A DNA stretch of 64,000 nt from Planktomarina temperata RCA23 (GTDB lineage Bacteria > Pseudomonadota > Alphaproteobacteria > Rhodobacterales > Rhodobacteraceae), in NCBI RefSeq assembly GCF_000738435.1, contig NZ_CP003984.1:62001-126000 (forward strand). The letters run 5' to 3'. A model generated the notes under the pieces. It worked only from the letters and a program-made list of their open reading frames with translations. It did no database searches and was not told where the DNA came from. The position numbers and the translations under genes were made by a program. Within the stretch, counting starts at the first letter, position 1, and each line of letters starts with the position of its first letter. Shown here piece by piece: positions 21,404-39,735 of this stretch.

Positions 21404-21493
21404 AATTACCTTCTGAAAGGTTACCCAAGCAAATGGGGAATGTCCAAGCCTAGTATGCGCCTGACCCGAATAAGGCTAAAGCGGGCAACAGTC

Positions 21494-21577
21494 GTGAAGC
21501 ATCAGGTAATAACCCGGCCAGAGCATCACAAGCTTTACCCGCGTCTGTGGCAGTCAGACTGTGGCGCTGGGTTGTGA
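21494..21577 (+). pseudogene. Remnant of the element-encoded 84-aa gene (28676 homologue)
   Basis: From GTG 21494 the frame reads KHQVITRPEHHKLYPRLWQSDC, clearly related to KHQVITLPEKHQDYPVLWYSDC of the gene at 28676. The bases before the GTG (CAGTC) are shared too. The frame then stops after about 27 codons. Shortly beyond, TGATTGGCGGCTTA resembles the WRGF-coding part of the intact gene, so the middle has been deleted. Confidence 0.7.
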
Positions 21578-21598
21578 TTGGCGGCTTACCTGCAGGAC

Positions 21599-21784
21599 TT
21601 ATGACTGTTTGAGCATTAGAACATTGCCCACCACAGACCCTAGTGGCGATAGTCTATTGCTCTCGTTCAATAATCCTGTCTTCCTCCCATAGGCTACGGT
21701 GAGACCCAGCTTATTCGCCTGAGCTTTCTGGTAACAGTGGCTCAAAACTGCGGAGAATTTCAGAAACTCTTCATGCGTATCCAT
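21599..21784 (-). CDS. Hypothetical 61-aa protein, doubtful
   Basis: An open frame of 61 codons with a plausible amino-acid mix (MDTHEEFLKFSAVLSHCYQK at the start), no recognised domain and no strong ribosome site. It lies in the decayed element between the gene remnant and a stretch (21785-22297) that holds no convincing gene. It may be real or a chance frame. Confidence 0.3.
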   Translation of the reverse strand: MDTHEEFLKFSAVLSHCYQKAQANKLGLTVAYGRKTGLLNESNRLSPLGSVVGNVLMLKQS

Positions 21785-21956
21785 CGTATATCATTCCAGT
21801 TTGTTGGTCTTTTTAATGGTACGCATAAATGCGGTATCTAGATCAGTGTGCTAATCGTAAGAAAGTTATTTGATAACGCTAACGATCCTTTACCAACATG
21901 TACAGCAAAGCTTTCTAACGGGTTGGATGAGCCTTACTCTGTGTTAAGCTCCGCCC

Positions 21957-22052
21957 ATGCGCAACCGAACCACACCAATCTGTATAATCATCATAGCTGC
22001 TGCTTTGTTGGCTAAGATCTACGTCATTGTTGCACCCAGTATAGCTGGATAG
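21957..22052 (+). CDS. Possible 31-aa membrane peptide, doubtful
   Basis: ATG 21957 opens 31 codons: a basic start (MRNRTTP), then CIIIIAAALLAKIYVIVA, a clear hydrophobic segment, and a short tail. It could be a membrane peptide or the leftover signal sequence of a lost exported gene. No good ribosome site is seen. Confidence 0.25.
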   Translation: MRNRTTPICIIIIAAALLAKIYVIVAPSIAG

Positions 22053-22297
22053 ATACTCTAAGGCAGCCTGGTGAGGGCTTGGCTCAAATGGCCAAAAAAC
22101 CACGTCAATCCGAATGCAACCAAACTCACAAGTTGCAGCGTGGATCGAGACATGCTGAGTGTTTTGCCATTTAGATACCTTACAAATTGATCCTATCAAT
22201 CTCAGGAAACTTCAGTCTGACATTGCCTAAAATTCTTGTTTTATGACTTTAAATAATGTTTTTATGAGTCCATGAGATGAGATTGTTGGAGTTTAAC

Positions 22298-22507
22298 ATG
22301 AAAGATACTGCACCTAAATCTTCTGGAATCATTGCCGTAGCCGCATTGTTTAGCATTGTGTCCATGGGCGTTTCCTTTGTTGTTTTTCAATTTTCCTTTG
22401 GGCAAAGCTTGATCGTGGGTGCTGCTGTTGCCACGCTGGTCGGGGTGGTGCTTTCTTTAGGGTGGCGGGAACCGCAGGCCGGGCAGAGCGAGAAGAACGG
22501 AAGGTAG
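22298..22507 (+). CDS. Small membrane protein, unknown function
   Basis: A 69-residue protein with two hydrophobic helices (IIAVAALFSIVSMGVSFVVF and FGQSLIVGAAVATLVGVVLS) and a charged tail rich in Gln, Ser and Lys. TTGGAG seven to eight bases before ATG 22298 supports this start over ATG 22277. I do not recognise the family. It lies in the decayed element upstream of the secreted-peptide gene; no counterpart is seen at the matching place in the right element. Confidence 0.55.
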   Translation: MKDTAPKSSGIIAVAALFSIVSMGVSFVVFQFSFGQSLIVGAAVATLVGVVLSLGWREPQAGQSEKNGR

Positions 22508-22697
22508 TGTCGGATTAAACTGATGCTGTCAGACGAATGAGAACGCGCATGGGATTGTGTGTGCAGCCTTAAATGCATAAGTTTTAGGGCTTTGTTTGTA
22601 ATGGCTTAGGCTCTTTTGTTTGAGCTGTGACAGTGTGTGTCTTGCTACGGCGGCAGTTCAGATTACATCGTATATATAAAGATATAAGGAGAAAGCT

Positions 22698-22859
22698 ATG
22701 AAGACCCTTACAGCATCACTGTTTGCTCTTGTTCTTTCAGCTCCATTCGCTCTTGCAGATGGATGCGGAATGCATGGTGAGCAGGAAGCCTCAATGTCTT
22801 GCGCAACAGGCCAAGCCTGGGACGCAGAAGCACAGCAGTGTGTCGACACAAGCGCGTAA
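22698..22859 (+). CDS. Small secreted Cys-rich peptide (left copy)
   Basis: A 53-residue precursor: a signal peptide (residues 1-20, MKTLTASLFALVLSAPFALA) and a 33-residue mature peptide beginning DGCGMHGEQE. Its three cysteines (23, 35, 48) and the SCATGQAWDAEAQQC pattern resemble the peritrophin/CBM14-like small proteins common in Rhodobacterales; function unknown. AAGGAGAAAGCT provides a good ribosome site. Compared with the copy at 30906, 15 codons differ but only three change the residue (L4I, Q46K, S52N), so both copies appear to be under selection. A strong terminator follows. Confidence 0.75.
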   Translation: MKTLTASLFALVLSAPFALADGCGMHGEQEASMSCATGQAWDAEAQQCVDTSA

Positions 22860-22881
22860 GATTATCTATGCGGAACCAATG

Positions 22882-22909
22882 AGGCCCCACTTTTTGTTGG
22901 GGCCTTTTT
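22882..22909 (+). terminator. Rho-independent terminator of the secreted-peptide gene
   Basis: AGGCCCCA, 8-base loop, TGGGGCCT, then a T5 run. It sits 23 bases after the peptide gene, and the same structure (with one G-U pair) follows the other copy. Bases 22910-23048 hold nothing recognisable. Confidence 0.9.
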
Positions 22910-23048
22910 ATTAGGTGGATGCTTTTAAGCTCTCCAATAATAAGCCGAAATCTATGTGAGAGTGTTTAAGAAGACGTTTTTAGAGCGTTAGAAGATTGAA
23001 TAAAAAGTTCCGTACTCGAGATTAGGCCGAAACGGTTTAGGTATATTC

Positions 23049-23170
23049 AAGACCTCTGCATAACCCAGCCGTCACGCCAAAACATTATGCCCGGTGGCAC
23101 CACCGGGCTGCGCCCGCCCAGGCCGGCGCTGCCCTTATTTCGTGCTGAACTGGCGTTATGCAGAGGTCTT
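23049..23170. repeat. Complete 122-bp palindromic repeat (MITE/REP-like)
   Basis: Perfect 16-bp terminal inverted repeats (AAGACCTCTGCATAAC and its complement, at 23049-23064 and 23155-23170) enclose a central 9-bp hairpin (GCCCGGTGG, CA, CCACCGGGC at 23089-23108) and a GC-rich segment CCAGGCCGGCGCTGCCC. The right half recurs at 39654-39707 and its extreme end at 621-648. It codes for nothing. It is GC-rich inside an AT-rich region, suggesting insertion after the element arrived. No target-site duplication is obvious. Confidence 0.75.
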
Positions 23171-23303
23171 TATTCCTGACACTGAATGACTTGCATCAAC
23201 TGTGCACCATAGGCTTTTTGAGGTCGCAATTCTGATTGATGTCTTTGGAGATGACACCATGGCCCATGAGGCAATCAGTCTTTAAGGGGCTTTGATTATT
23301 GGT

Positions 23304-23627
23304 TTATTCATTACCCGGCATTGGATAACCGCCAACTGTTCTTGCGACATTCAAAGCTTTGTCGACATCCATGGTCGGCAAAAGCAAAAGCTCGTCCCAG
23401 CCGCCAGAAGCCATCATCACGGCTTGAAGCCCAGAAGCGGTCTCATATGAATCAACCTCAGCATCAGCAATGACATCGAATGGACCCTGTAGGTAATCAA
23501 CGGATCCGAGTTTTGCTCCAGCTCTTTCGACCATAGCACTTACGGCTTTGACCCTAGCATCGTAACTGCTTGCCATCATCCCTTCACGGCCTTTGTCACT
23601 GTATGCTCCTAAAAAGAATACTTTCAT
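23304..23627 (-). CDS. GYD-domain protein
   Basis: A 107-residue protein matching the GYD family (alpha/beta ferredoxin-like fold): MKVFFLGAYSDKGREGM, then VERAGAKLGSVDYLQGPFDVIADAEV, LQAVMMASGGWDELLLLPTMDVDKAL. The family is widespread and uncharacterised; members are short cytoplasmic proteins. A ribosome-site-like AAGGACAT precedes the start on the minus strand. It is cargo of the decayed element or an older island gene; no partner gene is evident. Confidence 0.75.
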   Translation of the reverse strand: MKVFFLGAYSDKGREGMMASSYDARVKAVSAMVERAGAKLGSVDYLQGPFDVIADAEVDSYETASGLQAVMMASGGWDELLLLPTMDVDKALNVARTVGGYPMPGNE

Positions 23628-23738
23628 TTTTATGTCCTTCGGTTCTTTAAACGAGAGTATTCAAAAGATTCCATGAAACCTAAATTATGACTAGTTTAAA
23701 TCTTGAAGCAGAAGGTCATAGTCCACGCGATATGTCCG

Positions 23739-23837
23739 AGAGCCAGATGTCATAACTGTGGGGTTAAAGGTAACAACCCGTATCAGATCGCTAACACAGG
23801 TAACTCTAATGTTGCTTTCTATAGTGCTGGGGTTAGG
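23739..23837 (+). repeat. Diverged direct repeat, copy 1
   Basis: About 100 bp from AGAGCCAGATGTCATAACT to TGCTGGGGTTAGGTG align with 24191-24287 with one gap; the block TATCAGATCGCT is identical. Both copies contain a possible gene end (AGCCAGATGTCATAA / AGCCAGACGCTATAA). The function is unknown. The rest of 23628-23874 holds no gene. Confidence 0.4.
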
Positions 23838-23874
23838 TGAATTACCCCTTCACATGTAATGCGGCTCTAACCTC

Positions 23875-24042
23875 TCAACCCGACTGCTGCATCCGTTGGT
23901 GACGGGTTGGTAAATAACTATTGGCGTCGCTTAAGAATTCAACCTCAGCATTCTTCTCTAGATAGTTTTTCATTTGTTTTGCGTTTGAGAATTGCATTTC
24001 GAATGCACTACCATTGCTTGTGTTAAACAAAATTACTTGCAT
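23875..24042 (-). CDS. Hypothetical 55-aa protein
   Basis: ATG 24042 on the minus strand opens 55 codons: MQVILFNTSNGSAFEMQFSN, then AKQMKNYLEKNAEVEFLSDA, a soluble sequence that looks like a small alpha/beta domain. AGGGAGAA lies ten bases ahead, a good ribosome site for this region. No family is recognised. It stands alone between two diverged repeats. Confidence 0.55.
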   Translation of the reverse strand: MQVILFNTSNGSAFEMQFSNAKQMKNYLEKNAEVEFLSDANSYLPTRHQRMQQSG

Positions 24043-24190
24043 GTCTGATTCTCCCTTTCATAAAATATAGGTCAGAATGTTGAAAAATAAAACGAATACA
24101 ATTGAGTACATTTGAACTTGAATATTTTCATACAATTAGGTGAGCTTTATAACTCGCGTATGCTCTGACCCAACCCACGAAAAACGCTAA

Positions 24191-24287
24191 AGAGCCAGAC
24201 GCTATAACTTCGGCGTAAGGGGCCACAACACTTATCAGATCGCTTGCAGGCGTAATTTTGACATTGCGATGGATGGGGCTGAGGTTA
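24191..24287 (+). repeat. Diverged direct repeat, copy 2
   Basis: Partner of 23739-23837. It ends ten bases before the ATG of the exported phosphatase, so it forms that gene's leader. The identical TATCAGATCGCT block is at 24234-24245. Confidence 0.4.
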
Positions 24288-24297
24288 AAGTGCAGCT

Positions 24298-24852
24298 ATG
24301 CTAATGCGCCTAATCCCAATCCTAGCATTTCTTGTGATGCAAGCCAGCCATGTCACAGCTGACAGCCGAAACGATCTCATAAACGCAATAGCAGCGGTTG
24401 ATGCCAATGTCGTGTTCATGAGGCACACATTGGCGCCGGGCTATGGAGATCCAGATAATTTCTCTTTGAGTGAGTGTGATACTCAGAGGAATTTGGACGC
24501 TAAGGGTCGACAGCAAGCCAGTGATATTGGCGCCGCCATCCTGCATAGTGGGTTTCGTTTTACGCAAGTATTCTCCAGTGAGTGGTGTCGTTGCAAAGAA
24601 ACAACTGAACTTATGAAACTGGGCAAGTGGAGACTCTTTCCGGGTTTGAACTCATTTTTTCAGGGCCATGCGGACAGGCAAGATACACTTGAAATGTTAA
24701 GTCTCAAGCTTGAGGCGCTCACCAAAGGTGTGACTTTGATGGTGACACATCAGGTGATTATCAATGCGGTCACTGGGGCATCTGTAGGAAGCGGAGAATT
24801 CGTTGCGTATAATACCGATACAAAGAGGCGAAAAGTGTTTCGTTTGGACTGA
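24298..24852 (+). CDS. Exported histidine-phosphatase-family protein
   Basis: A 184-residue protein with a signal peptide (LIPILAFLVMQASHVTA, cleavage near residue 21) and the histidine-phosphatase (phosphoglycerate-mutase-like) core: VVFMRHTLAPGYGDP with the phospho-accepting His, RNLDAKGRQQASDIG, VFSSEWCRCKET, and the second His in LMVTHQVIINAV. Such periplasmic phosphatases act on small phosphate esters. The gene overlaps the next one by 50 bases. It is cargo of the left element; base composition matches the AT-richer block. Confidence 0.8.
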   Translation: MLMRLIPILAFLVMQASHVTADSRNDLINAIAAVDANVVFMRHTLAPGYGDPDNFSLSECDTQRNLDAKGRQQASDIGAAILHSGFRFTQVFSSEWCRCKETTELMKLGKWRLFPGLNSFFQGHADRQDTLEMLSLKLEALTKGVTLMVTHQVIINAVTGASVGSGEFVAYNTDTKRRKVFRLD

Positions 24853-25357
24853 CGGAAAGCGTACCATTATCATAGCCATATGTACTTTACTCGCGAATAA
24901 GGCTTATGCCGCTGGGGACTGTGACCTTCTTGGATCTTTAGAGGCTGACCCACTCTCAATCTCTGAACCTGTGGATTTCCAAGACATACAAAGTACAAAG
25001 CTTGTAAATGCCTGCACTAAAGCCATCGAAGACCAAAACGATAATGTTGCAAGATATTATCTGCTGAGGGCTAGAGGCCATTTGCGTGGTGGGTCATACG
25101 AACAAGCGATTAGTGATATAAGGCGTTCTCATGATATGGGGTACCCGGCGGCAACATTTGCACTCGCTACGCTTTATCACTTTGGCGATGCTATGCTGCA
25201 AGACCTCGAGAGGGCCGCTTCGCTTTATGAGGCAGCATACAGTAATGGCGTCACTTGGGCGGCTCGTGGACTAGCGATCCTCTATGAAGATTTCAGCTTC
25301 GACAACTACAACCCTGAGTTAGCGAAAGAGTGGCTTAAAAAGTTTGAGGGTATTTAG
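24803..25357 (+). CDS. Sel1/TPR-like exported protein
   Basis: The frame gives 184 residues with a hydrophobic segment TIIIAICTLLANKAYA (residues about 21-36) that looks like a signal peptide. It is followed by a helical-repeat region: ARYYLLRARGHLRGGSYEQA, SHDMGYPAATFALATLYHFG and ERAASLYEAAYSNGVTWAAR, typical of Sel1/TPR solenoids. The only ATG that keeps the signal lies 50 bases inside the phosphatase gene, giving an unusually long N-terminal extension; the true start is uncertain. The overlap suggests the two exported proteins are made together. Confidence 0.65.
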   Translation: MRIIPIQRGEKCFVWTDGKRTIIIAICTLLANKAYAAGDCDLLGSLEADPLSISEPVDFQDIQSTKLVNACTKAIEDQNDNVARYYLLRARGHLRGGSYEQAISDIRRSHDMGYPAATFALATLYHFGDAMLQDLERAASLYEAAYSNGVTWAARGLAILYEDFSFDNYNPELAKEWLKKFEGI

Positions 25358-25557
25358 CGCTGGGCATATCAAAGCTGGTGCCTCTCTGCATTGTGAAATG
25401 TGGAGGATTGTATCAAGCTCCTTAGAAGCCGTTGATGCATTCGAAGATTGTTACTAGAGCATCCACTCTCCAGTTTCTCTATACGAGTAACGGTAAGCTG
25501 TGAGTGAAGCTGATGGATGAAGGCTGCTTGGTTATTCTTAATGGCAGTAGCTCTTAA

Positions 25558-25971
25558 TCACTTGTTAACTATTTGATGTACTTCAATTACATTTCCATCT
25601 GGATCATAAAAGAACACCTGATGCCATCCTTTTACGGCATCACTTCCCCAGTCAGAATAGGGAACAGCTTGCTCATCCAAATGCTTCATAAAGGCTTCAA
25701 TATCATCAGTTCTGTAGGCGATATGACCGCGCTCTAAGGGATTCACGACTTGACCAGACTTGAAGCTGTTAAGCACATCCTTTGGTGTTAAATGCATTTG
25801 TATTGCGCCATCAGTTACGAATGACACATCGCCTACTAAGCTTTTATCTTGGTTCAGTGGCGGCAACTCAGAAGGTTTCTCATCGCCCAGCGTTAGCACA
25901 TCTCTGTAAAAGCGATCCATCGCTTTAACATTCGTGGAGCAAAGATTAATATGATGGAGTTTTAGCTTCAT
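25558..25971 (-). CDS. VOC/glyoxalase-family protein
   Basis: A 137-residue protein of the vicinal-oxygen-chelate fold with two beta-alpha-beta-beta-beta units: LHHINLCSTNVKAMDRFYRDVL at the start and GHIAYRTDDIEAFMKHLDE in the middle, then GWHQVFFYDPDGNVIEVHQ. His6, His82-region and the Glu near the C-terminus are at the usual metal-ligand places. The family includes glyoxalase I and antibiotic-resistance proteins; the substrate is not evident. The 200 bases upstream of its stop (25358-25557) hold nothing convincing. Confidence 0.8.
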   Translation of the reverse strand: MKLKLHHINLCSTNVKAMDRFYRDVLTLGDEKPSELPPLNQDKSLVGDVSFVTDGAIQMHLTPKDVLNSFKSGQVVNPLERGHIAYRTDDIEAFMKHLDEQAVPYSDWGSDAVKGWHQVFFYDPDGNVIEVHQIVNK

Positions 25972-26250
25972 ATCTACATGCTTCTATTACTGAACACCTC
26001 CGATCAAGCATAAACTAATAGTGACCTATTTTATGAGCAGGCCATCAAGCATACCCAATCCTTAACATCGAGGTGCGTTTGACCATTGAAGAGTTGGGCT
26101 TAGACACGCTTAAGCTGGCTGGTTGTTACGAGTGAAAGTAAGACGGTCAGGCTTGAGGCCTTCCCTGCTCCAGAGAGTGTTACTTACTTTAGTACACTAT
26201 ACCGATAACCCATATAATGATTTAAATACATATTGTTATATAAAGTATTT

Positions 26251-26779
26251 TTAGCCCAGAGACTCTCTGTGAAAGTGTCCATGTTCTGTAACTTCCTGTA
26301 TGGCGACCATCCATTTTACAAGTTCTTGCGGTGGTAATCCCGTCCCGTAGCGCTCATGAATCGCACTTGATTGCTTTGTTCTGTGGCCCATAAAATACTC
26401 TGTAACCGAACTGGGAACCCCAGCCACGACTGCCCTGTCTTTAAATGTGTGTTGCAGTGAATATGGGCTTAGCTGGCTGTTATCGAAGCCACTGCGCATA
26501 TTCACTATGTGCTTACTTAGCTTCTTTGAGCGATTAGCGAAGGAGTGCCTGCCCCCTCCATAAGTCGGGAAGATTGGTTCGTTTCTATTTAAGTCTGCCC
26601 TGTTCAGATAATCAGCGAAGAGTCCGAGTAGTGGATCAACCCGTGGGATGATACGTTCTAATCGCTTCTTCCCCACTATCCTTTCTTTGTGATTCCGGAA
26701 CCAGATATACGGTACTGCACCATTGACCATAACGTCCTGTCTCGCCAGTGGGTGCGCCACAGTAGGCCATAAGCAACCC
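26251..26779 (-). pseudogene. Truncated tyrosine integrase of the older element
   Basis: About 185 C-terminal residues are strongly similar to the intact integrase at 34589-36235 (SKKLSKHIVNMRSGF, GVPSSVTEYFMGHR, RYGTGLPPQELVKWM). The N-terminal two thirds are gone: homology starts at MAYCGAPTGE and runs straight into the tRNA flank. A 17-base deletion near 26735-26750 shifts the frame, so the apparent start MAHPLA is artificial. In the conserved box YSLR of the intact copy, Arg is Gln here (YSLQHTF). It is therefore certainly inactive. Confidence 0.9.
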
Positions 26780-26781
26780 GA

Positions 26782-26862
26782 ATTGACATGTATAACTATA
26801 TATGCAGAAACAAAGACGTGGCTCAGTGGCTCAACTGGATAGAGCAGCCCCCTCCTAAGGGG
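26782..26862 (+). repeat. Attachment-site direct repeat, left (81 bp)
   Basis: Bases match 36308-36388 at a constant offset of 9526 with four mismatches, all in the first 26 bases. The last 48 bases, including the first 43 of the tRNA, are identical. The identity ends sharply at the 3' side of the anticodon stem (AAGGGG), which places the crossover in the anticodon stem-loop. Confidence 0.9.
26820..26862 (+). pseudogene. tRNA-Arg(CCT) 5' fragment, positions 1-43
   Basis: GGCTCAGTGGCTCAACTGGA and onward through CTCCTAAGGGG is identical to the 5' part of the working tRNA at 36346, then changes to AGTATAAAATTAC. It lacks the variable loop, T-arm and 3' acceptor strand, so it is not a tRNA gene. 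Confidence 0.95.
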
Positions 26863-26978
26863 AGTATAAAATTACTTAAGTTATTTTATCATCATGTTTT
26901 TATGTAATATTATTATTGCTTGCTATGTGATAGTATATTTATGTGTATTGTTTTGTGTGTTTTTGTGTATGGCTTTTA

Positions 26979-27007
26979 TTGACATGGGATAGGAAATGGT
27001 GTATAAC
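26979..27007 (+). promoter_or_regulatory. Sigma-70 type promoter at the left end of the element
   Basis: TTGACA (26979-26984), 17-base spacer, TATAAC (27002-27007): nearly perfect. It points into the element toward the coupled genes at 27091 and 27246. It lies about 120 bp inside the left attachment site, in a very AT-rich stretch without genes (26863-27090). Confidence 0.75.
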
Positions 27008-27090
27008 TGTCCCTAGAGCGCAGGCTACCCGTGTCAATCCACGGCCCCTATTCCAATCCCCCCACATCACAACAGAAAGGACATCATCAG

Positions 27091-27249
27091 ATGGCCCCTA
27101 AACCTATTCCGCTATTCAGCGACTTCCTCTCCATGAAGCGTAAGAACCCAAACCAGTATTGGCTCCCTGTCACAGCAGCTCAGATGGCAAAGGCGTATAT
27201 CCACCACGGCCCAGCTTTCTTCGATCTCCATAAGGATCAAAGCCTATGA
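27091..27249 (+). CDS. Small element protein, 52 aa, unknown
   Basis: ATG 27091 follows AAAGGA by nine bases and opens MAPKPIPLFSDFLSMKRKNP, then YWLPVTAAQMAKAYIHHGPAFF. An earlier in-frame GTG exists but has no ribosome site. No domain is recognised. It is the first gene behind the consensus promoter and its stop overlaps the next start (ATGA), so the two are coupled. Confidence 0.6.
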   Translation: MAPKPIPLFSDFLSMKRKNPNQYWLPVTAAQMAKAYIHHGPAFFDLHKDQSL

Positions 27250-27632
27250 ATGTTTTTAGATTGCTTGAGTTTGCCGCTGATAGGCTCACAACCAATGACG
27301 CACTGTACCACGAGCAGGCCGATACCGTGCTGGGCATTCTGAGATCAGCAGGTGTGTTGCCACACAAGCGTTCTTCGCTCAACGGCAGCCTCCACAAGAG
27401 CGTGGCAGCTATGATCGTTCAAGCCTATGACACCGACACCACCATTGATGTGGCAATCAGACGTGCGGGTGACTGGCATCACTATGGTTACTCCACCAAG
27501 ATCATAGAGTATCTTGACGCTGCAGTAGAGCAGGGCTTGCTCGTATCACAGACTGGCAAAGCAAAAGGCGCATTAGCTCTTGGTGAGATTATTGAAGCCT
27601 ATCTTGATGAAACACATCTTACACTCGCCTAA
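27246..27632 (+). CDS. Element protein, 128 aa, unknown
   Basis: A 128-residue soluble, largely helical protein (MNVFRLLEFAADRLTTNDAL, LHKSVAAMIVQAYDTDTTID, TKIIEYLDAAVEQGLLVS). The last part (KIIEYLDAAVEQGLLVSQTGKAKG) has the spacing of a winged-helix end, but no family can be named. It is translationally coupled to the 52-aa gene and could be an early regulator of the element; this is inference from position. Confidence 0.6.
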   Translation: MNVFRLLEFAADRLTTNDALYHEQADTVLGILRSAGVLPHKRSSLNGSLHKSVAAMIVQAYDTDTTIDVAIRRAGDWHHYGYSTKIIEYLDAAVEQGLLVSQTGKAKGALALGEIIEAYLDETHLTLA

Positions 27633-27848
27633 CACCGTAAAAGAGTTTCAAGTGTGGTATACAAGTTTCCAATAAAATCACTATTATATCAGTAGCTTGA
27701 TGCTCTTTAGTATCCCTTAATAGGCTGTATTTCATACCTTCTGTTACGGCGGGTATCACCCGGAAAACCCTCACAATCAAATAGCTCCAAAACTCACGGA
27801 ACACGTGTGTAAGCAGGACTCCATCTACAATCTCAAAAGGAAGAACAC

Positions 27849-28930: not shown

Positions 28931-29065
28931 GATACTTTGCTGACCCACACCGCCTAACTGAAGTAATCGCCCTGTGAGCAGGCTTAATAGTTACTACTTC
29001 GTCCAGCCATACTTAGCCATGCATGACTTTAACACAGCACGAGCTGCATCCCACCTACTGCTCGG

Positions 29066-30517: not shown

Positions 30518-30535
30518 TTTACCATCACAATCTTT

Positions 30536-30673
30536 TTAATACTCTATTGAGAGACATACGGATAAATAGGTTAACCAAGGGTCATCAGCACAGCTTGCTG
30601 CTGAGCTAACAGAAGCACTGCCAAGCAAAGCCATCACTGTGAAGCATATCTGTAAAAGCCATCTCACGGTCAT
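30536..30673 (-). CDS. Possible 45-aa exported peptide, doubtful
   Basis: ATG 30673 opens 45 codons. MTVRWLLQICFTVMALLGSA followed by SVSSAAS reads as a signal peptide with a cleavage site near residue 26, then CADDPWLTYLSVC. It lies in the 388-bp gap between the nuclease and the secreted-peptide gene. The ribosome site is poor. It may be a truncated exported gene. Confidence 0.3.
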   Translation of the reverse strand: MTVRWLLQICFTVMALLGSASVSSAASCADDPWLTYLSVCLSIEY

Positions 30674-30800
30674 GCTACCAACTAAACAAAGCTTATTCCT
30701 AATGTGAAGTCTTATTGTGAGAGATGAAAGTGATCCACTTGCTCCGTTGCAGCGTAAAGAGAGTAACGTTTCTCTTCCCTGAGCAAATGTATAAACTTTA

Positions 30801-30831
30801 AGGCTGGGCTGTCGTAGCTCGGCCTTTTTTT
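30801..30831 (+). terminator. Strong rho-independent terminator without an upstream + strand gene
   Basis: AGGCTGGGCT, loop GTCGT, AGCTCGGCCT (10 bp with two G-U pairs) followed by T7. No + strand coding frame lies in front of it; a second small hairpin (AAGAGA...TCTCTT, about 30757-30775) precedes it. It may end a small RNA transcribed across about 30680-30831, or insulate the peptide gene. Confidence 0.7.
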
Positions 30832-30905
30832 CTGCTGTGACAATATGTTTCTTGTATGCAATGCTGTCAGCAACACATACTCTTCACAACCAAAAGGAGA
30901 AAACT

Positions 30906-31067
30906 ATGAAAACGATTACAGCATCACTGTTCGCTTTGGTTCTCTCTGCTCCATTCGCTCTCGCAGATGGATGCGGAATGCACGGTGAACAAGAAGCCTC
31001 AATGTCTTGCGCAACAGGCCAAGCTTGGGACGCAGAAGCAAAGCAGTGTGTCGACACAAACGCATAA
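30906..31067 (+). CDS. Small secreted Cys-rich peptide (right copy)
   Basis: A 53-residue precursor nearly identical to the product at 22698: signal peptide to Ala20, mature DGCGMHGEQEASMSCATG with cysteines 23, 35 and 48. AAAGGAGAAAACT gives a good ribosome site at ATG 30906. Codon differences from the left copy are mostly silent, so the peptide has been kept while the DNA drifted. It is the only exported product common to both elements. A role in the cell envelope or outside the cell is inferred from the signal peptide only. Confidence 0.75.
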   Translation: MKTITASLFALVLSAPFALADGCGMHGEQEASMSCATGQAWDAEAKQCVDTNA

Positions 31068-31089
31068 GCTTATCTATTACGACTTAAAG

Positions 31090-31117
31090 AGGCCTCACTT
31101 TTTGTTGGGGCCTTTTT
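31090..31117 (+). terminator. Rho-independent terminator of the secreted-peptide gene (right copy)
   Basis: AGGCCTCA, 8-base loop, TGGGGCCT (one G-U pair), then T5. Same design and distance as at 22882-22909. Confidence 0.9.
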
Positions 31118-31224
31118 ACTTGAGTGGATGCTTTTAAGCTCTCCATCCTCCAAACCTCGTGCATGTGGGTCTACATCTATAAGTAACGGGTGGGGTGCCA
31201 CTGGAGCCTGCCCGCAGCACCCTC

Positions 31225-31362
31225 TCAAGTTGAACCCATCTCGTATTCTGCAGCATAAACTTTGTTGCCCAGCGCTCTTATGGCGTAAGCCCATGCAAGG
31301 CATCCAATACCAAACAGTACCAATAGGCCCTGCTCTAGTGGTCTAAGGTAGAATAGTACCAA
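31225..31362 (-). CDS. Possible 45-aa membrane protein, doubtful
   Basis: A minus-strand frame from TTG 31362: LEQGLLVLFGIGCLAWAYAI is a good membrane helix, followed by RALGNKVYAAEYEMGST. The start codon is weak (TTG 31323 is an alternative) and no clear ribosome site exists. It fills the gap between the peptide gene and the serine recombinase. Holin-like size, but no family match is claimed. Confidence 0.3.
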   Translation of the reverse strand: MVLFYLRPLEQGLLVLFGIGCLAWAYAIRALGNKVYAAEYEMGST

Positions 31363-31399
31363 TAGGGTTTACATTAGGTGTTTATGGTATTATTTACCA
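31316..31399 (+). promoter_or_regulatory. Repeated 12-mer and palindrome ahead of the serine recombinase
   Basis: AGTACCAATAGG occurs at 31316-31327 and 31355-31366 (39 bp apart). TGGTA-TTATT-TACCA (31385-31399) is an inverted repeat. Paired sites upstream of a resolvase/invertase gene could be its recombination or operator sites; this is position-based inference. Confidence 0.35.
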
Positions 31400-31430
31400 C
31401 ATAGTCTATAACTCTATTGGGAGAACACCG

Positions 31431-31994
31431 ATGCTTATTGGGTTAGCGAGAACATCTACTCTTGAACAAGTTGCAGGGCTTGAAGCGCAGATACGTGACT
31501 TAGGAGCGTATGGCTGTGAGCGTATCTTTAAAGAGCAAGTCTCATCTGTTGCAGAGCGTGAGCAACTGGAAGCTGCGCTCAGCATGTTACGCACTGGCGA
31601 TAAACTTGTAACGACTAGGCTGGATCGGTTGGCTCGTTCCGTCCAACACCTTGGTCAGATCATTGAGCGTATCAACTCAGCAGGTGCATCACTGGTGATA
31701 TTGGACATGGGTGGGACTGCTGTTGATACCTCCAACCCAACAGGAAAGCTCATACTAAATGTTATGTCCTCAGTCGCACAGTTTGAGAGGGAGATGATGC
31801 TTGAACGCCAACGTGAGGGTATCGCCAAAGCGAAGGCTGAGGGTAAATACAAAGGGCGCAAGCCAACTGCTCGTGCGAAGACTGATATGGTTAAGCTGGC
31901 GTTGGATGAGGGTGTCAGTAAAGCTCAGATCTGCAGGGACTTGCAGATAAGCAAGACAAGCTTATATCGCATCATTAGTGCGATAAGGGCTTAA
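31431..31994 (+). CDS. Serine recombinase (resolvase/invertase family)
   Basis: A 187-residue small serine recombinase. The catalytic Ser is in LARTSTLEQ (Ser9), and the family blocks LVTTRLDRLARSVQHL and SVAQFEREMMLERQREGIAKAK follow. The C-terminal 45 residues are a helix-turn-helix (VSKAQICRDLQISKTSLYRI). Relatives resolve dimers or flip DNA segments. GGGAGAA lies ahead of ATG 31431. On an element that already has a tyrosine integrase it may resolve multimers of a circular form or invert a segment. The 73-aa gene follows eight bases downstream. Confidence 0.9.
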   Translation: MLIGLARTSTLEQVAGLEAQIRDLGAYGCERIFKEQVSSVAEREQLEAALSMLRTGDKLVTTRLDRLARSVQHLGQIIERINSAGASLVILDMGGTAVDTSNPTGKLILNVMSSVAQFEREMMLERQREGIAKAKAEGKYKGRKPTARAKTDMVKLALDEGVSKAQICRDLQISKTSLYRIISAIRA

Positions 31995-32001
31995 GAAAAA
32001 C

Positions 32002-32223
32002 ATGAAGTACATTGATGAGGTTTGCTCTGTTTTGAGTGATGAAGTGGAGCGCCGCTATTTGCGAACTCGTGATGCGTGGCAGATGTTAAGTGACGAGGTG
32101 TCTGCTGCTGATGAGGCGACTCCAGAGCAAACCAAGAAAGCTGAGCAAGCCCATAAGGATTACATCAGAGCATCGAAAGAATACTTAGCTATAGCGTTTA
32201 AGAAGCGGTTCTTAGAGCGTTGA
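32002..32223 (+). CDS. Hypothetical 73-aa protein
   Basis: A small, highly charged helical protein (YIDEVCSVLSDEVERRYLRT, QTKKAEQAHKDYIRASKEYL) that probably forms a coiled coil. It follows the serine recombinase by seven bases and is likely made from the same mRNA. No family is recognised. An accessory role to the recombinase is possible but unsupported. Bases 32224-32363 hold nothing recognisable. Confidence 0.6.
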   Translation: MKYIDEVCSVLSDEVERRYLRTRDAWQMLSDEVSAADEATPEQTKKAEQAHKDYIRASKEYLAIAFKKRFLER

Positions 32224-32363
32224 ACGCAGCGAATAGGCTGTGAGATGAGCCAACGAAACGAATGACACAGCTACAACATATCACGATGAACCATCTCGTC
32301 ATGCTTGAACATTAAGCATAAAGCATGGCGGGTTGCGGATACTTGAATGCGTGGCTCTGTACT

Positions 32364-32392
32364 TTGCAGATATAGGTTTATTCTTTTATAAT
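32364..32392 (+). promoter_or_regulatory. Promoter placed for a leaderless transcript
   Basis: TTGCAG (32364-32369), 17-base spacer, TATAAT (32387-32392). The ATG of the next gene is at 32400, only seven bases after the -10 box, so transcription should begin at or next to the start codon. GGGAG (32395-32399) touches the ATG and cannot act as a normal ribosome site. Confidence 0.65.
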
Positions 32393-32399
32393 ATGGGAG

Positions 32400-33290
32400 A
32401 TGGAAAAGATTCGATGTATAAAATGTGGAACGGAGAACACACTTGTTGTAGACTTCAGTAAGGCTATCGGTGCGTCATTGACTCTGAATTGTGGAACCTG
32501 CGGCAATATCCTTTTAACATTACAGAATGACTATAAAACAAATAGTGACATAAAAAATGGTTTCACCGGGCGCAAGCTTAGTACACCAGTTATAAATTTC
32601 CTGCGGACCAGACTAAAACGCAAAGCTGGGATGTTTAAGTTTTTAATCTTCGCTACATTTGCTCTCTACTGTCTAAGCACTTTGGACTTGATTGACTTTG
32701 GGCGAGATAAAAATAATCAGACTGATTCAACTGTTTCAAGCACACAGAAGCTGGCCTCGCCTACAACTAAAGCGATGCCGGTAAATCATACTAGGTCAGC
32801 ATTTTATAGCTTCAGCAAGGATCAGCGAAAAGTTGTTCAACTAGTACTAAAGGAAGCATACCAATACACCGGCACTATTGATGGCTTATGGGGTCCTGCT
32901 ACTCAAGCCGCTTACGGTAGACTACGGCGTTCTGAACCACAAAATGTGAAGGGCATTTCACACTCTCAAGTATTCACAAATATTATAAACAACTATGTAC
33001 AACGCCAAAATGCACCAGCACAATCCGTGAATAATTTGTTGGGTGCATATATAACGAGTAAGTCATTAGGAGGTGGTTGGTTTAATCCTAATACTGGACA
33101 GCAAGTCGACCCTGCAAAAGGATGGCGGCCCATTCAAAACGGCAATGAATTAAAAGGTTACAGATGCGGCGGTGTGCGGACTATTCTTTCAAGACAGCAT
33201 AGGTCCAATAATGGCTCTACATTATGCACATATCAAAACGGGACAACCATCAACATCGGTGTTGGTATTTGTCCATTAACTTGTGATTAG
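32400..33290 (+). CDS. Zinc-ribbon membrane protein with peptidoglycan-binding-like domain
   Basis: A 296-residue protein. The N-terminus is a zinc ribbon (Cys6, Cys9, Cys31, Cys34: CIKC and CGTC). Near residues 79-98 is a single membrane helix (FLIFATFALYCLSTLDLI), then a Thr/Ser-rich linker. Residues about 137-178 resemble a PG_binding_1 repeat (DQRKVVQLVLKEAYQYTGTI, DGLWGPATQAAYGRLR). The C-terminal part has four Cys residues, perhaps disulfide-linked. The topology puts the ribbon in the cytoplasm and the rest outside. I know no named family with this order; a link between the element and the cell wall is inference. Confidence 0.65.
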   Translation: MEKIRCIKCGTENTLVVDFSKAIGASLTLNCGTCGNILLTLQNDYKTNSDIKNGFTGRKLSTPVINFLRTRLKRKAGMFKFLIFATFALYCLSTLDLIDFGRDKNNQTDSTVSSTQKLASPTTKAMPVNHTRSAFYSFSKDQRKVVQLVLKEAYQYTGTIDGLWGPATQAAYGRLRRSEPQNVKGISHSQVFTNIINNYVQRQNAPAQSVNNLLGAYITSKSLGGGWFNPNTGQQVDPAKGWRPIQNGNELKGYRCGGVRTILSRQHRSNNGSTLCTYQNGTTINIGVGICPLTCD

Positions 33291-33452
33291 GGTTATGATC
33301 TGCGCATCATCGTTGGTTAGCTGTGTGAAGTCTATTGGCTCTTTAGCGGCATGGTTAGCTATTCGTGCTTCAAGCTTAGCAAGTTCGGTGTCTTGCACCT
33401 CAAGGTCACACCAATTCTTGAGGAAGCATCGCAGCAATCTGCAATGCGAACT
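33276..33452 (-). pseudogene. Possible coding remnant opposite the end of the membrane-protein gene
   Basis: A minus-strand frame of 58 codons without an ATG reads RCFLKNWCDLEVQDTELAKL, EARIANHAAKEPIDFTQL and ends TLITS. The composition looks like a real protein end, but no start is visible and it runs into the 3' end of 32400-33290. It may be a truncated gene from a former element. Confidence 0.3.
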
Positions 33453-33608
33453 TTAAGGGTATTGTGACGCTAGAGGGTTTACGAACAGTAGTGGAACGGA
33501 CTTATTCGGGTCATGAATATGTTCGCATATACTGTACGCAATAAAACATTTTACGGATAGAACCTTGGATAGAGTATTACTCAAAGAGTTTTAACTCCGC
33601 CAGAGGAT

Positions 33609-33627
33609 GCCCGTCCCCAAGACGGGC
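33609..33627 (+). terminator. GC-rich hairpin in the 33291-33705 gap, possible terminator
   Basis: GCCCGTC, loop CCCAA, GACGGGC, followed by TTATACTTTT. The stem is strong but the T-run is broken. Apart from this, the remnant at 33276-33452 and the palindrome at 33678, the 415-bp gap shows nothing recognisable. Confidence 0.4.
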
Positions 33628-33677
33628 TTATACTTTTGGTTAATACCCTCTCCCCCTTGTACTCAAAAAAACATAGT

Positions 33678-33694
33678 ATATGATATAATCATAT
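33678..33694 (+). promoter_or_regulatory. Palindrome over a -10 box, likely operator
   Basis: ATATGAT-ATA-ATCATAT contains TATAAT (33684-33689). The downstream gene starts at 33706 with AGTAGG five bases ahead, so the leader would be about ten bases. A protein bound here would block the promoter; the gene's own product, with a winged-helix-like C-terminus, is a candidate. Confidence 0.5.
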
Positions 33695-33705
33695 AGTAGG
33701 TCTAT

Positions 33706-34575
33706 ATGGACTCGTTAACCATGCATGAAACACTGTACATTACGAATAGCAATGCCAAGCATCACCTCCGTTTCATAGAGTGGGAAGCTTATCGCTATCT
33801 AGTGTTTGGGAAGGATCGTAGACTGATTCAAGAGGCGTTTGGAAGCATAGGGACTTCGTGGACACGGTGGAGTGATACTTACCAAACCTATCGTAAAAGG
33901 AACCAGAAGAATCCTGCGGCAAAGGCGCTACACGATATACATCTCAAGCTCGTCAGCGGTGAGATAAAAGCACTGGATGTCTTCTATGACCGTCTTCGGG
34001 GTGAAGTCACACATCGCAAGCGTGGCAAAGCCTTAGTAGCTGCGAAGGAACGCCAAGCGAAGAAGGCTTCAACTAAGGAAGCGTATGCAGCCAAAGGCGA
34101 GGCATTCATAGATAACAACCGTCTCGTAAGCATGACAATGAAAGCGGCGGTAGCTTCAGTTCATATGGGAATCGGTGAGCCTCTGATTACAGAACTTCTT
34201 GAGGGGCTTGTATCTAAATGCAGCAAAGCGCCGCTTTCAGCAGATGAGATGAAAACATTAAGGTCAATCTTCACCAATAAAAGGACAGCAATGGAACAAT
34301 CAATCTCTGAAGGCGAAGCCGCAATACTGCGTAATGATAATAAGAAGTTGGCCAAAGATGCCTTCCATTTATATGGCCTGTGTAAGCTTAACTGTGAAGT
34401 TGGTGATACGTGGGAACTGTCACAAGCTAAACTGCTGAAAGAGTTAGGCGCAGGAAAGGCAACGGCCCTACCTGCCGTAAAGCTACTGCATAAACTGGGT
34501 CTGATAGAGACCTATGAGAAGGGGAAGCAGGGGACTGTTAATCCTAAAGCTACGATCTATCGGCGGCTGCGCTAA
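33706..34575 (+). CDS. Element protein, 289 aa, possible DNA-binding regulator or replication protein
   Basis: A basic, mainly helical protein without signal or membrane segments. The first 60 residues (HHLRFIEWEAYRYLVFGKDR, SIGTSWTRWSDTYQTYRKRN) and a Lys-rich stretch near 105-125 could contact DNA. The last 55 residues (LSQAKLLKELGAGKATALPA, VKLLHKLGLIETYEKGKQG) have the look of a winged helix. No named family is recognised. AGTAGG ahead of ATG 33706 and a palindrome over the promoter suggest a regulated gene. It is convergent with the integrase, whose stop is 13 bases away. Confidence 0.6.
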   Translation: MDSLTMHETLYITNSNAKHHLRFIEWEAYRYLVFGKDRRLIQEAFGSIGTSWTRWSDTYQTYRKRNQKNPAAKALHDIHLKLVSGEIKALDVFYDRLRGEVTHRKRGKALVAAKERQAKKASTKEAYAAKGEAFIDNNRLVSMTMKAAVASVHMGIGEPLITELLEGLVSKCSKAPLSADEMKTLRSIFTNKRTAMEQSISEGEAAILRNDNKKLAKDAFHLYGLCKLNCEVGDTWELSQAKLLKELGAGKATALPAVKLLHKLGLIETYEKGKQGTVNPKATIYRRLR

Positions 34576-34588
34576 CGTCGGGATTGCC

Positions 34589-36235
34589 TCATTCATCACC
34601 GTGGAAGTGACCGTGATCTTGAACCTCTTGTATGGCAGTCATCCACTCCACAAGTTCCTGCGGGGGTAATCCTGTTCCGTAGCGCTTATGAACTCCACTG
34701 GAATCCTTTGATCTATGCCCCATGAGGTACTCCGTAACCGAACTGGGAACTCTAGCCATTGCCGCTCTGTCTCTGAATGTGTGGCGTAAAGAGTAGGGGC
34801 TTAACTGGCTTTCATCGTAGTGACTGCGCATATTCACTATGTGCTTGTTTAGTTTCTTTGAGCGCTCAGAGGAGGAATGCCTTCCCACTCCATAAGTAGG
34901 GAAGATTGGATCGTCTTTGTTTAGTTCTACTGTGCTGAGATAATCACATAAGAATCCGAGCAAAGGATCAACTAGCGGAACAATACGTTGCTGGCGTTTC
35001 TTGCCCATGATTCTATCTTTGTGATCTCTGAACCAGATGTACGGTACTGCGCCACTAACCATAACGTCCTGCCGTTGCAGTCCACCAGCCTCCCCCGTTG
35101 GTGCGCCACAGTAGGCCATAATCATCCCAATGAGCTTTATTTCATTGTTTGGCTCATCCAAGATACTCGTACAAAAGTATTGAAACTCTTCGGGTGTGAA
35201 TGATCGGCGGTTTGTTTCATGTAGCTGAATACGGCCTTGGTTGTCGTGTATGATAGTAACGAAGGGATCAAACTCAATCCTTTGCCTTTGGTTATTTCTG
35301 TCCCAGCTACGCCAAACAGCACGAAGCGTTCTCAGATTACGAACACGTGTAGAATAGTTGGGCCACGCAACCGCTGCAAACTCCTCCACCATGTACGTCT
35401 CAACGTCTTTCATGGGTGTATTCATGCCCTTGGGGAACGCCGTGGCAAGCTTCTGTGCTAGACTAATGGTAGCGTTTTCATGTTTTTGTATTTGCTCTGG
35501 GTTTCTGAGCTTAATCGTGAGATTCCGTCTTAGGTAATCGTCTAGCGCATTCTGCCATGTTGGGTCGGGTAACAGGTTCTCACCACACATAACTCTGTAT
35601 CGAATGACCTCTGGATCAGTTTCGTCCCAAACGAGTTGAGGCATAACGTAATCGGTGGCATCACAATCTATGTTTGGATCGATGCTCTCCGCATTCATGC
35701 GCTCCATATCAAGATACTTGTAGCTCAATGTCTCTTTTAGTTTGCGGCGCTCACTACCAAACTTCTTGAGTTTGTATAGCGCCGTATTCTCAAGGTTTAA
35801 CGCGGCAACTTTTTCTTTCAGTTCGATTATTGATATCTTGTCCTCCTGAAACTGTATCTGCAAAAGCTGCACTTCCAGCGTATCGTTCAGAAGTTTGTTT
35901 ATTTCCTCTGGTCTACTGTGAACGTTGATTTCTGGTTGATCGTCTGGGTGAAGACCCCGCTCAAGTAGGTCTGTCACAACAGCACGAACCTGTTCTCGTG
36001 GAAGTTGGCCTTTAATTTTCTCAGCGCCACCGTGACTTGCTATTATATGTTCATACCATTCATTCATCTTGCGCAATTCAAGCTGCGCTATATCTAAGTT
36101 CTTAGTCTTAAATGATTTTATCCACTCTGATTTGTTCTCAAATAGGTGTCTAACTTTTTTTGGTATCCGCCTGCGATACCCGTACCACCCTCCTTTGGCG
36201 GTCACAGTTAAGAAAGGAATGTTATGGTCTGGCAC
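34589..36235 (-). CDS. int: Tyrosine-type site-specific integrase
   Basis: A 548-residue phage-type integrase. An N-terminal arm domain (PFLTVTAKGGWYGYRRRIPK) and a coiled-coil-prone region (about 110-170) precede the SAM-like core-binding part (about 225-330) and the catalytic domain. Recognisable are SPYSLRHTFRDRA (box II, with Tyr in place of the usual His), YLMGHRS and the nucleophile Tyr in HKRYGTGLPPQE. The place of the first catalytic Arg reads CGAPTGEAGGL, with Pro where Arg is expected. It reads away from tRNA-Arg, 110 bp from it, as usual for an integrase next to its attachment site. A truncated relative lies at 26251. Confidence 0.9.
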   Translation of the reverse strand: MPDHNIPFLTVTAKGGWYGYRRRIPKKVRHLFENKSEWIKSFKTKNLDIAQLELRKMNEWYEHIIASHGGAEKIKGQLPREQVRAVVTDLLERGLHPDDQPEINVHSRPEEINKLLNDTLEVQLLQIQFQEDKISIIELKEKVAALNLENTALYKLKKFGSERRKLKETLSYKYLDMERMNAESIDPNIDCDATDYVMPQLVWDETDPEVIRYRVMCGENLLPDPTWQNALDDYLRRNLTIKLRNPEQIQKHENATISLAQKLATAFPKGMNTPMKDVETYMVEEFAAVAWPNYSTRVRNLRTLRAVWRSWDRNNQRQRIEFDPFVTIIHDNQGRIQLHETNRRSFTPEEFQYFCTSILDEPNNEIKLIGMIMAYCGAPTGEAGGLQRQDVMVSGAVPYIWFRDHKDRIMGKKRQQRIVPLVDPLLGFLCDYLSTVELNKDDPIFPTYGVGRHSSSERSKKLNKHIVNMRSHYDESQLSPYSLRHTFRDRAAMARVPSSVTEYLMGHRSKDSSGVHKRYGTGLPPQELVEWMTAIQEVQDHGHFHGDE

Positions 36236-36307
36236 GGTGTGTATAGCTTTTATCTATTCTGTGTATCGTATTTCTAGGATATTGATTAATCTTTAGCAAG
36301 TATATTG

Positions 36308-36388
36308 ATTGACATGTGTAACTATACATGAAAAAACAAAGACGTGGCTCAGTGGCTCAACTGGATAGAGCAGCCCCCTCCTAAGGGG
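36308..36388 (+). repeat. Attachment-site direct repeat, right (81 bp)
   Basis: Partner of 26782-26862. It includes 38 bases upstream of the tRNA (TTGACATGTGTAACTATACA, itself partly palindromic) and tRNA positions 1-43. The conserved upstream part lies on the element side, so it probably supplies the tRNA promoter region after integration. Confidence 0.9.
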
Positions 36389-36422
36389 CAGGTTGCAGGT
36401 TCGAATCCTGCCTGGGTCACCA
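36346..36422 (+). tRNA. tRNA-Arg (anticodon CCT)
   Basis: A full cloverleaf: acceptor GGCTCAG/CTGGGTC (with G-U pairs), D-arm GCTCAACTGGATAGAGC, anticodon arm GCCCCCTCCTAAGGGGC with CCT, T-arm GCAGGTTCGAATCCTGC, encoded CCA. It reads AGG. The 5' 43 bases are duplicated at 26820, so this is the element's integration target restored by the element's own copy of the 5' half. Confidence 0.96.
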
Positions 36423-39707: not shown

Positions 39708-39735
39708 TTGGAAGAGCTCATCTTCAACCGGGCTT

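Follow-up and report, generated by a model that had tools for sequence, protein, structure and literature searches.

Putative satellite-like integrative elements of marine Rhodobacteraceae: a small core with a predicted phage-type wall hydrolase at a reused tRNA-Arg gene

The window considered here is a stretch of 64,000 nucleotides from the genome of Planktomarina temperata RCA23 (single contig, 3,288,122 bp; G000:C1:62001-126000). It carries a 9526-bp integrative element at tRNA-Arg(CCT), next to the decayed remains of a related, older unit. An integrative element family in marine Rhodobacteraceae, of which this element is a member, is well supported by comparison of genomes and viral contigs. 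In this family a small core (52-aa, 128-aa and 84-aa proteins and endo276, a predicted wall hydrolase) is kept, not always whole, and the integrase, replication genes and cargo are swapped. The family can be read, with a probability of about 0.55, as helper-dependent, satellite-like integrative elements; dependence on a helper is the likelier state, and excision, packaging and the helper itself are matters of inference. Part of PMC10803314 reports that marine bacteria move many possibly satellite chromosomal islands with poorly understood functions. In the present family the core is defined, two members are complete and precisely delimited, the site states form a natural series, and endo276 hints at a plausible helper group whose phages and hosts are in culture, so that helper dependence is directly testable.

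The integrated element and its relatives

The element is bounded by direct repeats (26782-26862 and 36308-36388; 81 nt, 95% identical, spacing 9526). Genomes and loci used in the comparison are numbered with G and L, respectively. The parts of the attachment site are:

26782..26862, plus strand: displaced tRNA-Arg 5' half (43 nt) preceded by 38 nt of upstream DNA; attachment site that separates the old element from the new
26863..36388: the intact element as integrated, spanning 9526 bp between the end of the displaced tRNA half and that of the restored one (repeat spacing; missing from the empty site of G647)
36308..36388, plus strand: second repeat copy, element-borne upstream DNA and the 5' half that rebuilds the tRNA (repeat comparison; G647)
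36346..36422, plus strand: intact tRNA-Arg(CCT), the only copy at the site (ARAGORN; Rfam RF00005)

Flanking attachment repeats, an integrase and an empty site in a relative are all present, as in site-specific integrative elements. The first-pass annotation, made from the letters of the window, had described 9526 bp between 81-bp repeats; the spacing and identity hold, but on its left side (26782) the repeat stops at a deletion junction, as seen from alignment with G649, and not at an attachment boundary. The true duplicated attachment part is the tRNA 5' half with element-borne upstream DNA, which differs from the upstream DNA of the G647 empty site. The element restores the tRNA 5' half and supplies its own upstream DNA, and the tRNA gene stays whole. 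An element-borne promoter for the rebuilt tRNA could be supposed; a promoter scan of 36200-36440 gave no match. Most tRNA-borne elements restore the 3' half of the gene, and the 5'-half polarity is less common.

The core genes and the integrase are located as follows:

27091..27249, plus strand: core gene, 52 aa (39.5% over 43 aa to L051; 31.6% over 38 aa to L054)
27246..27632, plus strand: core gene, 128 aa, predicted helical fold (AF2 pLDDT 91.4; relatives in family genomes)
27849..28679, plus strand: endo276, with an N-terminal GLM motif (residues 8-10), a helical region and a C-terminal lysozyme/transglycosylase-like domain
28676..28930, plus strand: core gene, 84 aa (47% to L051, 35% to L036)
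34589..36235, minus strand: tyrosine integrase, 548 aa, DUF6538 and Phage_integrase (Pfam, PHROGs)

The stop of the 52-aa gene overlaps the start of the 128-aa gene (ATGA), and endo276 overlaps the 84-aa gene (GTGA in the window, ATGA in L036).

The second complete member, L051, is found in another genus (G176). It is a 6441-bp element between two identical 39-nt copies of the tRNA-Leu(TAA) 5' half, with the polarity and core order of the window element. Read from the displaced half, its genes encode a 52-aa-like protein, a 128-aa-like protein, the endo protein, a 151-aa cargo protein, an 84-aa-like protein, a 161-aa membrane-like protein and, on the minus strand beside the tRNA, the integrase. 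Identities to the window core amount to 40% (52-aa), 47% (128-aa), 46% (endo) and 47% (84-aa). An element family reusing one site had been proposed in the first-pass annotation, to be given up if no other genome had this set bounded by tRNA-Arg repeats. The proposal survives that check: L051 is a relative between tRNA 5'-half repeats, at tRNA-Leu(TAA) rather than tRNA-Arg, and related integrases are found at the same tRNA-Arg in G649 and G654.

Core parts occur at eight more loci: L014/L013 (99.97% identical to each other over 8673 bp), L015, L018, L036, L048, L052, L053 and L054. Across the ten loci with core parts, the endo gene is present in six, the 128-aa gene in nine and the 84-aa gene in three. 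L014 and L015 encode a 52-aa-like protein, a nuclease-like 137-aa protein, the 128-aa protein, a ribbon-helix-helix-like protein, a DUF5906/VapE helicase, the endo protein (66% and 62% identical to that of the window, respectively), a resolvase and a zinc-ribbon-like protein. The DUF5906/VapE-like helicase is recognized by Pfam in L014 and L053 and has homologues in L015 (91%) and in L054. The 128-aa gene (cut short in L054) stands with the 137-aa gene in L052, L053 and L054, the last two also having the helicase. In L036 (G513), the 128-aa, endo and 84-aa genes follow in order, and type III restriction genes come next. L018, a 5247-bp contig of Marivivens donghaensis, encodes an endo protein (41%) and a protein with family-A polymerase motifs noted by eye. 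L048, situated at 1.41 Mb of the own genome, encodes a fused 52- and 128-aa-like core protein.

The order and family genomes searched are samples of a larger family. Counting the own genome, 3 of 390 order genomes match the endo profile and 5 of 394 family genomes match the 128-aa profile. Members also occur in IMG/VR viral contigs; this collection takes in proviral and plasmid-like contigs as well. A search of plasmids with endo276 and a scan of viral contigs with the 84-aa protein gave no relative. The 128-aa protein, which at a guess might bind DNA, had no match at E <= 0.001 in fold searches; a match to BrxA, from a separate scan, has E 0.0037. A literature search, with most subscription papers outside its reach, returned no description of this gene set.

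Several side observations concern these loci. In L051, the 3' end of the endo gene is duplicated beside the 151-aa cargo gene (8298-8356 and 8818-8876; 80%), as if recombination at the endo gene had brought the cargo in; L048 apparently has a relative of it at 17132-17542 (by eye). In L036 (3449-9079), a methylase-like frame is interrupted by a transposase-like gene (by eye), and the restriction enzyme is recognized by PADLOC. L048 (G000:C1:1408000-1427900) is an island at tRNA-Leu(CAA) with two integrase-like genes, two copies of the same transposase-like gene and two genes weakly similar to the polymerase-like gene of L018, plus a 96% copy of the GYD gene described below. Pfam gives no polymerase family for the polymerase-like genes of L018 and L048. 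A different element type is found at tRNA-Asn in two genera (L037 in G289, L050 in G649; integrases 38%, resolvases 76% identical), and L037 has a topoisomerase-VI-like gene (by eye).

endo276 and the helper-dependent reading

endo276 is predicted to be a virion-type peptidoglycan hydrolase. Its residues 152-270 match PHROG 26675 (phage endolysin family) with E 1.7e-13; its AF2 model has pLDDT 72.9, and a fold search gave no match at E <= 0.001, the best being T4 lysozyme and Slt (E about 0.1). E152, within SESSG, is its presumed catalytic glutamate. The domain occurs in ten phage records under the names peptidoglycan hydrolase, endolysin, structural, hypothetical or, in Tenacibaculum phages, LysM/baseplate; in all four phage records fetched it lies within the structural-gene cluster. 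Such an arrangement resembles podovirus internal (ejection) proteins: as described in part of PMC8954989, the wall hydrolase domain of T7 belongs to the internal-protein cluster and sits on the ejected gp16, which opens the wall. Unlike in gp16, the domain is found here on an integrative element and behind another N-terminal region.

The nearest phage relatives of endo276 are encoded by the IMG/VR contigs L016 (59%) and L017 (54%). These contigs are called HMO-2011-like because their proteins resemble CRP-phage and HMO-2011 counterparts: the 603-aa protein of L017 shares 52-60% identity with its counterparts in CRP-13, CRP-2, CRP-345, CRP-207 and HMO-2011, and the 1218-aa protein of L016 is 43% identical over 1198 aa to the large cluster protein of CRP-207. 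In the endo tree, the element proteins group with L016/L017, apart from four other phages, with support 93/93 (the first value is under the tool's mark of 95/80, and four phage rows were trimmed less well). This tree fits one origin or several. HMO-2011-type phages are a dominant ocean group, members of which infect RCA roseobacters, according to part of PMC8528129.

A short motif, GLM, links the element proteins with these phages. It starts at residue 5-8 in five of the six element endo proteins (window, L014, L015, L018, L051), positions that depend on the chosen starts, longer ones being possible in L014, L018 and L051. The motif is also present in L016 and L017, the endo protein of L017 having GLMRP at residue 41. 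Eight of the 18 phage records with a homologue of the small neighbour in L017 were fetched (five CRP phages, HMO-2011, a Pelagibacter phage and a Rhizobium phage). In seven of them, all except the Rhizobium phage, GLM lies within 34 residues of the C-terminus of a 164-192-aa protein, mostly at its very tail. Of 78 other coding sequences, one has GLM within 34 residues of an end (86 of 101 annotated coding sequences were used in the count, 15 cut by locus ends being dropped). The motif was found by looking, and these counts are no blind test. In the more distant phages L055, L057 and L058, GLM is located near an end of the protein preceding the endo protein, and in L056 none is seen. The endo protein of L016 shares another motif, Y[AS].YG, with its 1218-aa neighbour. 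Both motifs could be short docking motifs among internal virion proteins. In the 164-192-aa protein, which belongs to the structural cluster of HMO-2011-like phages (L059-L063, L065, L066; about 180 aa), the GLM near the C-terminus is conserved, often as the tail GLMARG, GLMARR or GLMAKG, and a virion assembly signal is possible there.

Domain scans (Pfam, PHROGs) covered nine of the eleven main genes of the intact element, all except the 52-aa and secreted-peptide genes. Neither capsid, terminase or portal genes nor relaxase or other conjugation genes were found among the nine, so the element lacks a complete virion gene set of its own among them, as satellites in general do. The earlier statement that there are no recognizable virion, packaging or conjugation genes is right for capsid, terminase and conjugation among these nine genes and has to be amended for endo276, a virion-type hydrolase. 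The satellite-like reading is preferred because no capsid, terminase, portal or relaxase gene was seen among the scanned window and L051 genes, yet a virion-type enzyme is kept at six loci, and because the integrase, replication genes and cargo differ between loci, some with DUF5906 (a PICMI-defining model). An HMO-2011-like helper is suggested because endo276 is nearest to L016/L017, GLM is common to HMO-2011-like proteins, and such phages infect RCA roseobacters.

The following sequence of events is proposed. The tyrosine integrase would recombine a circle with the anticodon stem-loop region of the tRNA gene. That the element displaces the tRNA 5' half and brings in a 5' half and upstream DNA of its own is shown by the anatomy at two tRNAs. 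Later it would excise, replicate as a circle or concatemer and spread in particles of a helper podovirus, probably an HMO-2011-like one. endo276 might be built into helper particles through the GLM motif and help DNA to cross the wall of the next cell. The more specific proposal, that the satellite puts its own ejection-type wall cutter into helper particles via a tag shared with helper internal proteins, altering virion entry and not capsid size or packaging, is speculative and should be regarded as improbable at present; if endo276 does ride in helper virions, satellites would have a means of influencing entry into the cell.

Several points weigh against the satellite-like reading. Excision, the circle and packaging are postulated steps. 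No known packaging or capsid-redirecting factor is present among the element's own genes, and a replication gene was not seen in L051. Integrase relatives are few: at E <= 1e-30 the match count is 2 of 394 family genomes, one of them the own genome, and scans of genome and viral contigs, able to detect close relatives only, gave none. The L036 endo protein is without GLM, and the GLM proteins of the phages are putative virion proteins. Searches of the cultured CRP phages and of HMO-2011 gave no match to the endo domain, nor did comparison with the first 50 kb of CRP-13 and of HMO-2011, so that no cultured RCA phage is known to carry it.

Alternatively, the family could consist of tRNA-borne cargo elements without phage parasitism, moved by vesicles, transformation or passive transduction, with endo276 domesticated, for example, for release or anti-phage action. 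The cargo-like genes, the varied replication genes and the lack of a packaging gene among those found are consistent with this view, but a virion-type hydrolase is kept in 6 of the 10 core loci, the phage-shared GLM in 5 of 6 endo proteins, and members occur in the (mixed) IMG/VR contigs; such elements are a serious though unlikely explanation. A decayed podovirus prophage retaining the integrase and one virion enzyme is already disfavoured and has a slim chance. endo276 does have the domain of phage structural clusters, and all HMO-2011-type isolates encode an integrase (stated in part of PMC8528129). Against this, another genus has the small core in unchanged order, together with different accessory genes, between identical 39-nt tRNA repeats. 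The scanned proteins of the window and L051 include no portal, terminase, capsid or tail protein, and comparison of the listed element proteins with the first 50 kb of CRP-13 and HMO-2011 gave a single match below E 1e-3, between the L015 integrase and that of HMO-2011 (E 1e-7). An integrative mobilizable element moved by conjugation would fit the size, integrase and cargo, but the relaxase expected of integrative conjugative or mobilizable elements is missing from the nine scanned genes, transfer by an origin alone being outside the scope of the scans, and this explanation is highly improbable.

The satellite-like reading can be compared with known systems. Tycheposons, reportedly described by Hackl and colleagues in 2023, are said to be small tRNA-borne elements of marine bacteria with a tyrosine recombinase, cargo and site reuse, in other hosts. 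The window element has the same set of traits (tyrosine recombinase, tRNA site, cargo, marine host); tycheposons are not known to show 5'-half restoration or the endo/128-aa/84-aa core. P4-like satellites also have an integrase beside a tRNA and swap accessory genes, and AlpA is present in L015; unlike in P4, the scan matches include no capsid-sizing or activation genes and none of the psu, delta, sid or alpha type. Virion-encapsidated integrative mobile elements (VEIMEs; named in parts of PMC10803314 and PMC11389934) are marine integrative elements named for riding in virions; the window element, whose encapsidation is postulated, resembles them in logic. PICMI are defined, in part of PMC10803314, by an integrase, AlpA and a DUF3987/DUF5906 primase beside fis. 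The same source makes them minimal marine satellites without capsid genes, a likeness joined by the ATGA gene overlap and the DUF5906-type primase in L014, L053 and L054. In contrast, the window element has neither AlpA nor a DUF5906 primase among its scanned genes and uses a tRNA site, not one beside fis; by the gene definition it is not a PICMI.

The older unit and the history of the site

To the left of the intact element lies the older unit:

21482..26781: old, decayed element with its left end deleted, a homologue of the single element that G649 has at this tRNA
22686..22910, plus strand: old secreted-peptide locus copy (repeat comparison)
26251..26760, minus strand: old integrase C-terminal remnant (90% to the G649 integrase)

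That two related elements are stacked at tRNA-Arg(CCT), one intact and one decayed, had been proposed from the letters, and it agrees with the repeats, the shared loci and the states of G647, G649 and G646. The integrase remnant shares 71% identity with the C-terminal third of the new integrase, confirming the homology claimed earlier, and the secreted-peptide loci (22686-22910 and 30894-31118), likewise held to be related, are 88% identical. The starts of the 84-aa genes (21489-21561 and 28671-28743) are 74% identical. The shared landmark order claimed for both units stands for the 84-aa start, the peptide locus and the integrase remnant, but the old unit is truncated and without an outer tRNA half. 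A deletion fuses the host flank (about 21480) to the interior of the 84-aa gene, and this junction is common to the window and G649. Up to 26782, the window has lost 1159 bp that G649 retains, and with them the old integrase except for its C-terminal third; this junction has a few bases of microhomology at most.

The tRNA region was searched in 41 genomes and matched over more than 500 bases in four genomes of the same genus besides the own one. Site states were examined in six of 20 genus genomes (own, G646, G647, G649, G651, G654). G647 has the empty site sought in the first-pass annotation, with 52 bp between the host-flank block (to 21480) and the tRNA block (from 36343). G649 holds the old element alone (three longest blocks 94-97% identical) adjoining an intact tRNA, and its integrase is whole, in one open frame of 550 codons. 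G646 has kept the phosphatase and 73-aa genes near the tRNA without an integrase match, and retains native tRNA upstream DNA and a decayed tRNA start (by eye). G654 has an integrase 41-42% identical beside tRNA-Arg(CCT). In G651 homology starts at the tRNA near a contig end, so the site state is unreadable there. The stacked pair is more than chance, since an integrase match at E <= 1e-20 is present in 3 of the 20 genus genomes, own included, and G649 has the older unit alone beside the same tRNA. Because empty (G647), old-only (G649) and scar (G646) states exist in the genus, genome comparison shows that a second, related element entered a tRNA already used by the first, which then decayed, lost its left end and integrase and left cargo behind.

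Accessory genes, cargo and repeats

The remaining genes of the intact element are:

29066..30517, minus strand: GIY-YIG homing-endonuclease-like protein with a NUMOD-like stretch (phrog_5123 E 2.8e-5; NUMOD1 E 0.0029, below the cut-off)
30906..31067, plus strand: secreted cysteine-containing peptide, 53 aa (old-unit locus copy 88%; 94% in G649)
31431..31994, plus strand: serine resolvase/invertase, 187 aa (Pfam Resolvase 8e-37)
32002..32223, plus strand: 73-aa protein (same-site relatives: 90% in G649, 79% in G646)
32400..33290, plus strand: 296-aa accessory protein with a weak zinc-ribbon-like start and a peptidoglycan-binding-like stretch
33706..34575, plus strand: 289-aa protein with a weak DnaD/Rep-like C-terminus (PHROG E 0.017-0.033)

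The homing-endonuclease-like gene is likely an insertion. The 296-aa protein has Pfam matches below the cut-off and matches phrog_1493 (endolysin) with E 0.00042. The 289-aa protein is possibly a replication protein; a firm Rep-like reading was rejected at PHROG values of just E 0.017-0.033. It matches one of 388 family genomes, the own genome alone, and shows a weak match to PADLOC CARF (E 0.00055). Its three IMG/VR matches (33% over 78 aa) look like chance; the contig of one of them, L010, has a long tail-tape-like gene.

A conserved DNA of about 100 bp ending in a terminator-like hairpin (by eye) occurs at 30731-30830 of the window, L014 7452-7551, L015 10462-10563 and L033 16484-16631. It lies directly downstream of the endo gene in L014/L015 and upstream of the secreted-peptide gene in the window. 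The ends of the L014 contig (1-1575 and 9248-10669) look like opposite ends of a single BspA-like/autotransporter surface gene, and a piece like a tRNA 3' end lies between its integrase and core. This suggests a circular or concatemeric element with the surface gene as cargo, although the ends have no terminal overlap, the frames do not join without a gap, and a tandem pair would look alike.

Cargo of the older unit is represented by the following genes, the labels of which come from the first reading of the letters:

23304..23627, minus strand: GYD-domain cargo (96% copy at G000:C1:1.417 Mb)
24298..25357, plus strand: phosphatase-like and Sel1-like cargo (24298-24852, 24803-25357; 97%/94% in G649; phosphatase 85% in G646)
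25558..25971, minus strand: VOC-like cargo (98% in G649)

The idea that cargo is left behind at the site agrees with the phosphatase that persists beside the tRNA in G646 without an integrase. The matter is wider than first described: between the GYD and phosphatase genes there are two copies of a 126-bp repeat (23716-23838, 24168-24288), which recurs at other islands of the genome and may be a route of cargo shuffling. With a one-copy query, the repeat has matches in 9 of 20 genus genomes at E <= 0.01 (14 in the own genome, 16 in G649, 12 in G646, 8 in G647). A repeat model gave 57 matches, many of them half copies, in 33 sequences, 18 of which had been fetched for holding the repeat. Copies lie mostly outside longer open frames, with few inside. 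In G647, with its empty tRNA-Arg site, a copy precedes a 184-aa gene (L081) equal in length to the phosphatase gene.

The repeat is an imperfect palindrome, present also at L048 9658-9782, L050 9643-9790 and L014 1461-1578, near cargo genes. It abuts the integrase 3' end in L014 and L050 and overlaps a degenerate zinc-ribbon-like frame (by eye). Integron-type ends follow the GTTRRRY rule; the right end of the repeat resembles it and the left core does not fit. Folding was not clearly above shuffles (8 folds, 4 copies; z +1.44 to -2.20), and an integron-like nature was provisionally rejected. Rfam gave no match at the repeat in five loci. Another repeat, MITE-like, is located at 23049-23172 (related piece at 39654-39708) and has inverted AAGACCTCTGCATAAC-type ends (by eye). 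It has 56 BLAST matches in the own genome, many being two pieces of one copy, with 40 of 69 candidates scored.

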